Position numbers and translations under genes: made by a program
Shown here: positions 5,085-7,891 of the stretch, in pieces
Position numbering within the stretch: position 1 is the stretch's first letter
Layout: every line of letters begins with the position of its first letter
Assembly (NCBI GenBank): GCA_017459725.1
Contig: JAFUCL010000034.1
Location: forward strand, 1-64,000
Origin: Solobacterium sp.
Lineage (GTDB): Bacteria > Bacillota_I > Bacilli_A > Erysipelotrichales > Erysipelotrichaceae
Length of the DNA: 64,000 nt
Direction of reading: 5' to 3'
The notes under the pieces: model-generated
The model's input: the letters and a program-made list of their open reading frames with translations, nothing else
Told to the model about the DNA's origin: nothing
Database searches by the model: none

Positions 5085-5330
5085 ATGGGCTTATTTCACA
5101 AGAGAAACCCGAAGATCAACAGCAGGTTCAGAGAACTGTTTGACAACGGTGTAAACGAAACGGAAAGTGAATTCCTTGACAGTATGAATGAAGTTGTCCG
5201 TATGGTTGAATACGATACGGAATATACGACAAACGACAAGCTGAAGATCTATGAACTGATGTCACAGCTGTGCAACTGTTCTTCTTCAGACCGTCATAAG
5301 TTTGCAAGAAAGCTTAAAAGAATTCTATAA
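5085..5330 (+). CDS. Small protein of unknown function after thiI
   Basis: 81-residue soluble, charged protein. A good GGAGGTG Shine-Dalgarno precedes the ATG, and a terminator immediately follows the stop, so it is very probably expressed as the last gene of the ezrA-desulfurase-thiI operon. It is predicted helical with an acidic middle and a basic C-terminus (ARKLKRIL). A Cys-x-Cys pair (LCNCSSS, near residues 68-70) is its only conspicuous motif. I do not recognise a family. Its position suggests, but does not show, a link to sulfur relay. Confidence 0.75.
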   Translation: MGLFHKRNPKINSRFRELFDNGVNETESEFLDSMNEVVRMVEYDTEYTTNDKLKIYELMSQLCNCSSSDRHKFARKLKRIL

Positions 5331-5354
5331 AAAAGGCCGCGTGGCCTTTTTATT
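5329..5354. terminator. Bidirectional terminator between convergent genes
   Basis: AAAAAGGCC-GCGT-GGCCTTTTT is a symmetric hairpin with U tracts on both strands. It serves the thiI operon and the convergent metallophosphoesterase gene, whose stop lies inside it. Confidence 0.9.
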
Positions 5355-6222
5355 TTGAAGTGTCTGTTATGGAGCGGTGTTCAAGCCGGTAGAGTACGAT
5401 TTCCGCATTGGCCAGGAAACGCACATCACGGATCTCCGTGCCCGTGCCGTTGGTGATATCCAGGGTGAAGGCACCGTTTACGGTATACTTGCCGCGGATA
5501 TATGTGGTGGCTCCGGGCGGTGTATACAGGGCTCCGAATCCCCAGTATGCCTGGCCGCCGTGACTGTGTCCGGCAAGTGCATATTTGGTAAGATCGGTAG
5601 GGAACTGGGCTGCTGTATCCGGCGTATGGCATACTGCAATTGCGTAGGATGTGCGCGATACATTGGCAAAGGCCGTGGTGATATCGGCATATCCGTTTAC
5701 ACCGTTGTCGACTCCGACCAGCACGATTGCCTGTGATCCCTGGTTGCGCAGGGAGATGCTGCGGTTGTTCAGCAGTTCGAATTCGCCGTCATACAGGGCT
5801 TCTTCCACGCGTTTGGTCAGGGTTACATCCTTGCGGTCCGCATCACCCATGACAGCGAATTTGCCAAGCGGCGCATTGATTCGCTTTAGACCCGTGGAGA
5901 TTTCCTTCTTCATGGCTTCATCCATGACCGTTACTTCATCCGCAACAAGATCTCCGCCGAATACCACAATATCCGGAGACAGACCGTTGATTGCCGTGAC
6001 AAGTCTGGAAAGCCTTGCACTGTCCATGAATGCACCGTAATCCAGATCGGAGAAGTACAGCACGGAAATATCATTCATCTGTTCGGGAATATATATGGAA
6101 GATAGGGTTTCATAACGTACGGTGAAGCGCTTCGGTGCCGAGAAGAAAGCATCATATGTCAATGCCGCAATCGTTACGGCAAGTATCAGTGAAATGGCGA
6201 TGATTTTCCTGAGAATCTTCAT
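5350..6222 (-). CDS. Membrane-anchored metallophosphoesterase-like protein with altered motifs
   Basis: 290 residues with an N-terminal membrane anchor (about 6-25) and an external calcineurin-like phosphoesterase domain related to the YkuE/YaeI group. The motifs are in order but altered. Motif I is D59-L-D61 where DxH is usual; motif II is GGD (D91); motif III is GDAD (126-129) instead of GNHD. Motif IV H199 (CHTPD) and motif V GHSH (218-221) are intact. Metal ligands could persist through the Asp replacements, but the catalytic motif III histidine is gone. The ATG at 6222 follows GGAAGA; the upstream open frame runs through the neighbour's promoter. Divergent from the HAD-like gene, 81 nt apart. 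Function unknown. Confidence 0.8.
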   Translation of the reverse strand: MKILRKIIAISLILAVTIAALTYDAFFSAPKRFTVRYETLSSIYIPEQMNDISVLYFSDLDYGAFMDSARLSRLVTAINGLSPDIVVFGGDLVADEVTVMDEAMKKEISTGLKRINAPLGKFAVMGDADRKDVTLTKRVEEALYDGEFELLNNRSISLRNQGSQAIVLVGVDNGVNGYADITTAFANVSRTSYAIAVCHTPDTAAQFPTDLTKYALAGHSHGGQAYWGFGALYTPPGATTYIRGKYTVNGAFTLDITNGTGTEIRDVRFLANAEIVLYRLEHRSITDTSK

Positions 6223-6246
6223 TTGTCTTCCTTTTCCATAAGCAAT

Positions 6247-6255
6247 ATCATAACA
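6247..6255 (-). promoter_or_regulatory. Promoter of the metallophosphoesterase-like gene
   Basis: Minus-strand extended -10 TGTTATGAT with no clear -35. It is back to back with the HAD gene promoter. Confidence 0.5.
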
Positions 6256-6275
6256 CAACAGGCAATGACCATATA

Positions 6276-6284
6276 TGTTATAAT
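6276..6284 (+). promoter_or_regulatory. Promoter of the HAD-like gene
   Basis: Extended -10 TGTTATAAT at 6276-6284. The predicted start near 6291 would leave a leader of about 13 nt that begins with the GGAGGTGG Shine-Dalgarno. Confidence 0.6.
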
Positions 6285-6303
6285 TCGGCGGGAGGTGGAA
6301 CTG

Positions 6304-7065
6304 ATGCTGTCTGATGCATGGCTGATTGCTGCTTCTGCTCTTCTTGATGACAAGGGGAAACCGCGCAGTGAAGCAATACTGTTTCTTGATGCGCTCCGCC
6401 AGTACAGAAAACCGTTTGCTGTACTGACGAATCAATCCGTATTTTCCAGGGATGCATTATGTGCCCGCTACAACGATGCCGGTTTTCATCTGAAACCGTC
6501 TTCTTTCTATACATCCATCATGGCTGCCATTGATTATGCGCACAGTCAGAAACCTGACGCAAAGACAGCCGGATATATCGGTTCACATGCAATGCGTGAT
6601 CTGCTCCGTTCCGCCGGGTATGCGGTTGATATGAACAAGGCAGACTGGGTCTTTGCCGGTACCGACCGCAATGCACAGTACAATGACTACTGCTATGCGC
6701 TGCGTCTGATCATGGGCGGTGCACAGCTGATTGCGGCTGATCTTGCACCTGCGGATCATATAGATGATACCGTGCTTATCGGTACGGGGGCCGTTGTCCG
6801 TATGCTGGAAGAAGCTTCAGGGATGAAGGCAATCAATGCCGGGTTCCCCTCAGAGATATTTGTCAGCAGGGCTCTCAAGTATCTCGGTACGGATGCGGAG
6901 GATACTGTATTTATCGGTACGGATCCTGCCGGTGAGATTGCGGCTGCTTCAAAGGCCGGCGTCAGAACGGCATGGATTACCGGACTCAATGAGGATGCCG
7001 ACGTCTTTGAAAGCGAAGTGCGTCCTACATATCTGTTTGAAAGTTTTACAGGTTTACTGCGCTGA
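6304..7065 (+). CDS. HAD-fold, NagD-like protein lacking catalytic residues (pseudo-phosphatase)
   Basis: 253 residues that can be followed along the whole NagD-type HAD fold (core plus C2-type cap), but every catalytic position is changed. The nucleophile motif DxDG is A9-A10-S11-A12. Motif II T42-N43 is kept. The motif III lysine (GKP in NagD) is F181. Motif IV GDxxxTD reads G205-T-D-P-A-G-E211. The frame is intact with a strong Shine-Dalgarno (GGAGGTGG) 7 nt before the ATG, so this is a maintained gene, not decay. I infer a binding or regulatory role rather than phosphatase activity. The stop overlaps the convergent hydrolase gene by 12 nt. Alignment was done by eye against E. coli NagD from memory. 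Confidence 0.8.
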   Translation: MLSDAWLIAASALLDDKGKPRSEAILFLDALRQYRKPFAVLTNQSVFSRDALCARYNDAGFHLKPSSFYTSIMAAIDYAHSQKPDAKTAGYIGSHAMRDLLRSAGYAVDMNKADWVFAGTDRNAQYNDYCYALRLIMGGAQLIAADLAPADHIDDTVLIGTGAVVRMLEEASGMKAINAGFPSEIFVSRALKYLGTDAEDTVFIGTDPAGEIAAASKAGVRTAWITGLNEDADVFESEVRPTYLFESFTGLLR

Positions 7066-7776
7066 GTTCTCCTGGCAGGCGTTGATCAGCCAGCGGATCA
7101 GCTCAACATGTTTTTCATCATGAACAAGTCTTTCCGGATGCCACTGCACCGCAAGGACCTGTTCTTTTTCTACGCCTTCAATGATGCCGTCTTCGCTGTA
7201 TGCGGAAACAGTCAGGGAAGGGGCAGGATCCTTGATGGCCTGGTGGTGATAGGAATTGACGGTATGCGTATCACCGAATATATCGTGCAGAACGGTATCT
7301 TCGCAGAATGTGCATGAATGGGCTGTCTCACCGGCTCCGCGGGGCGGATCCATGTTTCTCTGGTTGTGTTCAACCGTTGTGTGAAGGTCACTCGGGATAT
7401 CTTGATACAGGGTGCCGCCTTCAGCTACATTGATGACCTGAATGCCGCGGCAGATACCGAGCACAGGTTTATGGGCACGCCGGAAGGCATGGTACAGCAG
7501 CATGTCACTGGAATCGACATCAGCCTCCGGAAGAGAGCTGTGGGTATTCTCTTCACCGTAGTAGGCAGGATCAATGTCCTCACCGCCTGTGATCACAAGA
7601 CCGTCCAGGGCAGCCGCAATATCATCTGCTGTTTCTTCGGTAACGGTGCCGAGCATAACCGGAATGCCTCCGCCCAGCCCGACATACTGGAAATAACTTT
7701 CATTGTTATAGAATCTTCTGGTATCGGTATTGAATACACTGCACCGTTCGGTCAGACCAATCAGCATTTTTCTCAT
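7054..7776 (-). CDS. Gamma-glutamyl hydrolase, peptidase C26 / class-I glutamine amidotransferase-like (PuuD-like)
   Basis: 240-residue cytoplasmic hydrolase of the gamma-glutamyl-GABA hydrolase group. The nucleophile cysteine sits in GICRGIQVINVAEGG, and the His-Glu pair of the triad in VQWHPERL near the C-terminus. The opening MRKMLIGLTER and the DGLVITGGEDIDP segment are typical. GAGGTG lies 7 nt before the chosen ATG; the open frame extends 14 codons further up without a ribosome site. No polyamine or GABA genes lie nearby, so the substrate is unknown. Confidence 0.85.
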   Translation of the reverse strand: MRKMLIGLTERCSVFNTDTRRFYNNESYFQYVGLGGGIPVMLGTVTEETADDIAAALDGLVITGGEDIDPAYYGEENTHSSLPEADVDSSDMLLYHAFRRAHKPVLGICRGIQVINVAEGGTLYQDIPSDLHTTVEHNQRNMDPPRGAGETAHSCTFCEDTVLHDIFGDTHTVNSYHHQAIKDPAPSLTVSAYSEDGIIEGVEKEQVLAVQWHPERLVHDEKHVELIRWLINACQENSAQ

Positions 7777-7891
7777 ATAAATCACCTCGTTAAGCTGAAT
7801 TCTATCATATACGGGCATGTGTGTGGTACTCTGTCTGTTTGCCTGTTAATTTGTAAGATGGTAAGATGTTTTAGAACATCGTCGGAGGATT

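Follow-up and report, generated by a model that had tools for sequence, protein, structure and literature searches.

A divergently transcribed pair of altered phosphatase genes in Solobacterium and its relatives: a metallophosphoesterase-fold protein linked to a probable HAD-IIA pseudophosphatase

We describe two adjacent, divergently transcribed genes of Solobacterium sp., one for a membrane-anchored protein of the metallophosphoesterase (MPE) fold and one for a HAD-IIA protein, both of which carry altered active sites and are retained together across a genus. Both lie in the 64,000-nucleotide stretch of DNA analysed here (the window; contig JAFUCL010000034.1). We lean towards the reading that together they make up a single linked module, two former phosphatases that today bind rather than hydrolyse. 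The features to which we refer are as follows.

5350..6222, minus strand: membrane-anchored MPE-fold protein with an altered active site, 290 aa (P0001)
6130..6219, minus strand: N-terminal helix, residues 2-31, presumably a membrane anchor or uncleaved signal (a helix in the AlphaFold2 model; hydrophobic run preceded by Lys/Arg)
6034..6051, minus strand: MPE motif I, SDLDYG from residue 58, His to Asp at 61
5935..5958, minus strand: MPE motif II, GGDLVADE from residue 89
5833..5853, minus strand: MPE motif III, VMGDADR from residue 124, N127 to D, H128 to A, D129 kept
5617..5634, minus strand: MPE motif IV, VCHTPD from residue 197, H199 kept
5551..5574, minus strand: MPE motif V, AGHSHGGQ from residue 217, H219 and H221 kept
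6223..6303, no strand: intergenic region, 81 bp, with back-to-back extended -10-like sites
6304..7065, plus strand: predicted HAD-IIA pseudophosphatase, 253 aa (P0002)
6310..6351, plus strand: former HAD motif I, where the DLDGT of sister genera aligns with AASAL and the nucleophile Asp is replaced by Ala9
7054..7818, minus strand: what we take to be a peptidase C26-like gene, often the third gene of the neighbourhood, next to the HAD

A probably exported protein of the metallophosphoesterase fold

A first-pass annotation of this DNA had proposed that the gene at 5350-6222(-) reads DLD in place of DxH and GDAD in place of GNHD, with the remaining metal ligands intact, and translation and alignment bear this out (D91, H199, H219 and H221 are present in motifs II, IV and V). 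By sequence the protein is hard to place: PF00149 scores 16.5 bits, below its cut-off of 21.5, a family scan of the same genome returned ten PF00149 matches that did not include it, and phmmer against PDB sequences gave chance matches only, so that a fold search was needed. The AlphaFold2 model (pLDDT 96.6) has Mre11 among its nearest solved structures (Z 18.9, rmsd 2.7 over 202 residues) and also matches GpdQ (Z 16.9, rmsd 2.5, 192 residues) and Rv0805 (Z 15.8, rmsd 2.8, 181 residues); the Longicatena orthologue was modelled with a pLDDT of 95.8. As modelled, the product clearly has the MPE fold despite its sub-threshold Pfam score.

No twin arginine was found in the N-terminus and a search for TatC gave no match in the window's own genome (94.2% complete), which together point to Sec export and an extracytoplasmic domain; TatC was detected in only 16 of 272 genomes of the family. 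An intact GNHD motif occurs in 6 of 13 genomes with TatC and in 23 of 144 without it (Fisher p 0.016, relatedness being ignored), a link that we treat as a lead only. Some MPE relatives have Pro/Glu/Thr-rich C-terminal tails, for instance in genome G014, and the long tails of this kind on the orthologues L049:4803-5846 and L125 are consistent with surface exposure.

The altered site across the genus and the family

Most of the named relatives of the locus belong to Solobacterium sp. or are Erysipelotrichaceae MAGs, and Bulleidia extructa W1219 is also among them. Solobacterium and its relatives are described as being placed in Bulleidia by GTDB (PMC12786226), and we infer that the window's genus, here g1, is Bulleidia in GTDB's sense, whose members live in the gut and the mouth; our g1 sample comprised 70 genomes, including the window's own. 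An MPE homologue was found in 249 of 272 family genomes. One locus was taken from each of 160 genomes, with closer homologues favoured, and 157 of these, from 48 genera, were scored, L055, L259 and L268 having been excluded for bad or partial alignment rows. The excluded L055 reads SDIYYG/GDQD/GHSL. The orthologues L289 and L291 (genomes G142 and G145, genus g23), which were read outside the counts, are altered further, with GKTMGG/GKSLGG at motif V and GEND/GNKD at motif III.

The N127-H128 pair is intact in 29 of the 157 family orthologues, representing 13 genera, and in none of the 63 scored from g1, a uniformity that excludes chance as the source of the altered site. Residue 127 is Asp in 61 of the 63 and Asn, followed by Ser128, in the other two; residue 61 is Asp in 42, Glu in 14, Lys in 3, His in 2, Tyr in 1 and Gln in 1; and residue 128 is variable, the general-acid His being gone in 62 of the 63 rows (the exception, from G076, has D127). 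To the question of whether DLD/GDAD marks a conserved subfamily, which the first-pass annotation had raised, the alignment of homologues answers in favour, with one correction: the altered motifs do define a conserved subfamily, and the exact motif is only one of many states. Other positions scarcely vary, with D59 and D91 each present in 157/157 family MPEs, D129 in 156/157, and H199 and H219 in 155/155 and 148/154 readable rows, respectively; within g1, D59, D91 and D129 are invariant and H199 (61/61) and H219 (60/60) are found in every readable row. It is scarcely credible that such states arose as sequencing or annotation artefacts: most of the genomes are indeed draft assemblies, but like states are found in the named isolates Bulleidia extructa, Longicatena caecimuris and Amedibacillus dolichus.

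Residues 61, 127 and 221

In an MPE, metal 1 is held by D59, H61, D91 and H221 and metal 2 by D91, N127, H199 and H219, with H128 as the general acid. By this standard assignment, the orthologues would keep the metal-2 set, with Asn exchanged for Asp or Glu, while the metal-1 set and the acid vary. Across the family MPEs, H221 is retained in 48 of 54 proteins that combine D127 with Asp or Glu at 61, and is replaced by Leu, Arg or Met in 29 of 29 that combine D127 with a non-acidic residue 61 (K, H, Y, Q, T, S or C). H221 also accompanies N127 in 31/31 and E127 in 38/39, and Lys61 is paired with Leu221 in 10/10. Lys61/Leu221 orthologues include L201 and L191, as well as L245 and L256 (Longicatena, Amedibacillus, genus g18), and other g18 proteins have Tyr61/Arg221; in either combination a positively charged side chain may stand in for metal 1.

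On a quick maximum-likelihood tree the intact/altered trait requires at least six changes, or seven if only losses are allowed, and the loss of H221 requires 12. When branch-independent pairs were compared, loss of H221 went in the same direction as D127 with a non-acidic residue 61 in 5.5 of 7 pairs on average and in the opposite direction in 0 (median sign-test p 0.031). For D127 alone the figure was 3.1 of 7 (p 0.25), and the test of acidic 61 within D127 rows had only 4 pairs (p 0.125), so that, after allowing for descent, the apparent coupling of the three residues is suggestive and not proven.

These states bear directly on a less probable alternative, namely that the MPE is still an enzyme whose acidic ligands have retuned it to hard metals (Ca2+, Mg2+, Mn2+), and that only the HAD protein is dead. 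Sec export would place metallation outside the cell, and the scarcity of TatC noted above fits this; acidic 61 accompanies H221 in most D127 proteins; and YfcE, which carries GNCD, is described as hydrolysing bis-pNPP (PMC4320098), so loss of the motif III His need not end activity. Moreover, the window's copy still has residues that could plausibly hold two metals (D59, D61, D91, D127, H199, H219 and H221), which together with the YfcE precedent of Cys for His leaves the retuned enzyme some probability. Against it stand the near-universal absence of the general acid in g1 and the invariable loss of H221 from D127 lineages with non-acidic 61, which indicates that metal site 1 has been dismantled repeatedly while the gene was kept. 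For these same two reasons we consider it the likelier case that the MPE has a non-catalytic, binding role; metal binding has probably been kept, and some activity may remain.

We also considered an ancient duplication, in which canonical and altered paralogues arose and one was lost, and rejected it: where a genome has a second MPE copy, that copy is far from the window's MPE or its orthologues (about 25-35%), the motifs of most such copies are canonical or nearly so, and the seven that served as outgroup fall outside the orthologue clade, all of which fits vertical change better, with the proviso that this grouping depends on the chosen outgroup and on a rapidly built tree in which many forks are open. 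Locus L124 (G196, genus g37) has a second, partial copy with GEYD, which reflects either a recent duplication or an assembly variant.

The HAD-IIA partner

The neighbouring gene had been called an altered HAD phosphatase, and this was confirmed: the product of 6304-7065(+) lacks DxDGT. It exceeds the Pfam cut-offs for PF13344 (53.4 against 27) and PF13242 (33.8 against 22) and falls below that of TIGR01460 (60.6 against 100.15), and its best PDB match, 1yv9 (E 2.7e-20), covers nearly the whole length. The rows compared were assembled by dropping the broken gene of G075, adding that of G041 and re-extracting those of G042 and G071. Among the g1 proteins the nucleophile Asp is present in 0 of 63 and the motif III Lys in 0 of 63; the first motif IV Asp survives in 16/63 and the motif II Thr/Ser in 58/63, and 35 columns remain conserved at 80% or more. 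HAD proteins from seven other genera (g5, g11, g12, g29, g37, g42 and g59) have the nucleophile in 16/16 and the Lys in 15/15 readable rows; in six of these 16 rows the two genes of the locus stand 1.2-3.0 kb apart, and a seventh, that of G269, is 2.7 kb distant. Canonical motifs are found in five HAD-IIA paralogues that g1 genomes carry at other loci, so that the inactivation is specific to the pair locus. Having lost both the nucleophile and the Lys, the g1 protein could not use the phosphoaspartate mechanism and is almost certainly inactive as a phosphatase.

Linkage and genomic context

The HAD-like gene does accompany the MPE, as had been anticipated: both are present in 63 of the 70 g1 genomes, and they are adjacent and divergent in 63 of 64 g1 loci (the exception is L022). 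Of the other seven genomes, G045 has the MPE only, G041 has the HAD only, on a contig that ends beside it, and five (G013, G017, G034, G060 and G067) have neither gene. In G060, G067 and G017, thiI and the 81-aa gene that follows it lie on contigs that continue without the pair. Joint absence from draft genomes may partly reflect assembly gaps, G013 and G034 being the less certain cases. In the window the 81-aa gene (5085-5330, plus strand) belongs to an unnamed small family with no Pfam match over cut-off; it is conserved beside thiI at many g1 loci and, weakly, in G269.

The pair is also divergent in seven other genera, with a spacing of 1.2-3.0 kb in g29, g12 and g42. A position on the thiI side is shared by the window, g1 subclade A (at loci with the needed flank) and genera g59 and g37. 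In much of g1 subclade B the pair adjoins genes that, from their sequences, we take to encode DnaE, a response regulator, a histidine kinase and a methyltransferase, and in Bulleidia extructa it occupies a third context.

Back-to-back extended -10 promoters had been proposed between the two genes, and such sites are present in the window's gap, TGTTATAAT at 6276-6284 on the plus strand and TGTTATGAT at 6247-6255 on the minus strand. The pattern recurs more widely: TGnTAnnnT occurs on both strands in 35 of 59 g1 gaps against 1.2 expected from mononucleotide shuffles, related loci not being independent. A generic sigma-70 scan of the g1 gaps did not flag the extended -10 sites and gave no promoter excess.

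The earlier suggestion that the two proteins may work as a pair holds as genetic linkage only. Alternatively, the genes might be neighbours merely through a shared promoter and history, with independent non-catalytic or moonlighting roles. That the predicted compartments differ, that G045 has lost the HAD alone and that over a kilobase separates the genes in g29, g12 and g42 would all be expected of such independence. However, the linkage survives three genomic contexts, three genomes that keep the thiI flank lack both genes, and the HAD is inactivated only in a clade whose MPE is altered too, and we regard independent roles as improbable.

Selection

For the MPE, dN/dS is 0.020-0.084 (16 pairs) and for the HAD 0.016-0.092 (17 pairs), the pairs being limited to dS below 0.7; beyond that limit the values rise, with dS close to saturation. 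By these ratios both genes are under strong purifying selection, and neither is decaying. Residues 61, 128 and 221 are variable and the HAD of G075 is broken, as one would expect if two unneeded phosphatase genes were decaying neutrally, but the low dN/dS of both genes, the invariance of D59, D91, H199 and H219 in g1 and the retention of both genes in the 1.4-1.5 Mb genomes G012 and G023 make such decay very improbable. The G075 gene itself (L019) is in two stretches with one internal stop and is either a pseudogene or an assembly error.

Relation to known systems

The window's MPE shares its fold and motif order with proteins of the YkuE/YaeI/LpxG type; unlike them it is without DxH and GNHD, and it lies far under the cut-offs of its best NCBIfam models (LpxG 81.5 against 350; YaeI 51.3 against 188). 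LpxG is described as Mn2+-dependent, with an N-terminal transmembrane helix (PMC4807358), and the window's protein has a predicted N-terminal anchor as well. B. subtilis YkuE is described as a Tat substrate (PMC5449189), whereas no Tat motif was seen here. The HAD is similar over nearly its whole length to the HAD-IIA phosphatases NagD, YutF and TIGR01457, but in g1 it differs from them in having no nucleophile Asp, no Lys and a degraded GDxxxTD.

Inactive or binding forms of the MPE fold have precedents. Vps29 of the retromer uses the fold as a binding scaffold, although it is eukaryotic and soluble and has no HAD link. The B subunits of eukaryotic DNA polymerases are described as regulatory subunits with a catalytically inactive calcineurin-like phosphodiesterase fold (PMC4996933); unlike the window's protein they are eukaryotic and intracellular, have an OB domain and lack a HAD partner. 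Pseudophosphatases likewise are treated as a recognised class (PMC10211241). Within the open-licence PMC literature we found no report of this MPE/HAD pair or of inactive MPEs in Erysipelotrichaceae, nor of any conserved, divergently transcribed pseudophosphatase pair from two unrelated folds. Inactive MPE-fold proteins and pseudophosphatases are thus already known, and it is the linked pair from two unrelated folds that we did not find described.

Proposed explanation and significance

How might the favoured module of two binding proteins work? A bidirectional promoter would drive both genes together. In the cytosol the HAD would retain a phosphate-binding pocket, its motif II Thr/Ser being mostly kept, and the extracytoplasmic MPE would retain a metal site (D59, D91, D127, H199 and H219); with pocket and site both kept, the two proteins might each bind a phosphorylated ligand on opposite sides of the membrane. 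Since the predicted compartments differ, direct contact between them is unlikely. The ligand is perhaps a cell-envelope intermediate, for which the pair would serve as sensor, carrier or scaffold, but a shared envelope phospho-ligand is conjecture on our part. A passage in PMC12786226 describes most tag teichoic-acid genes as missing from B. extructa, with only a TagD-like domain kept, which fits a changed envelope and proves nothing.

The order of events can be sketched from related genera. In g59 (GDxD, L221) and g37 (GEYD) the MPE is altered and the HAD canonical, and in g5 both are canonical, which is most simply read as a change in the MPE first, after which the HAD would have been inactivated in the g1 ancestor; the MPE alteration is family-wide and would be the older of the two. 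More tentatively, and with considerable doubt, we speculate that a module of two phosphatases, placed on opposite sides of the membrane, was converted as a unit into a non-catalytic transmembrane pair that senses a phospho-ligand. Such a conversion would have run through an ordered rewiring of the MPE from two metals to one, sometimes with Lys or Arg in place of metal 1 (K61/L221, Y61/R221), and would have been repeated in several Erysipelotrichaceae lineages.

With both phosphatases altered in one genus and canonical partners in related genera, the family offers a natural before-and-after series, and the coupled states of residues 61, 127 and 221 offer a direct test of the way in which a two-metal hydrolase can lose one of its metals and yet be retained in a different role. 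The labels "metallophosphoesterase" and "HAD hydrolase" are probably misleading in these gut bacteria. That the two genes have lost catalytic parts and yet are retained jointly and intact suggests binding or sensing, not cutting.
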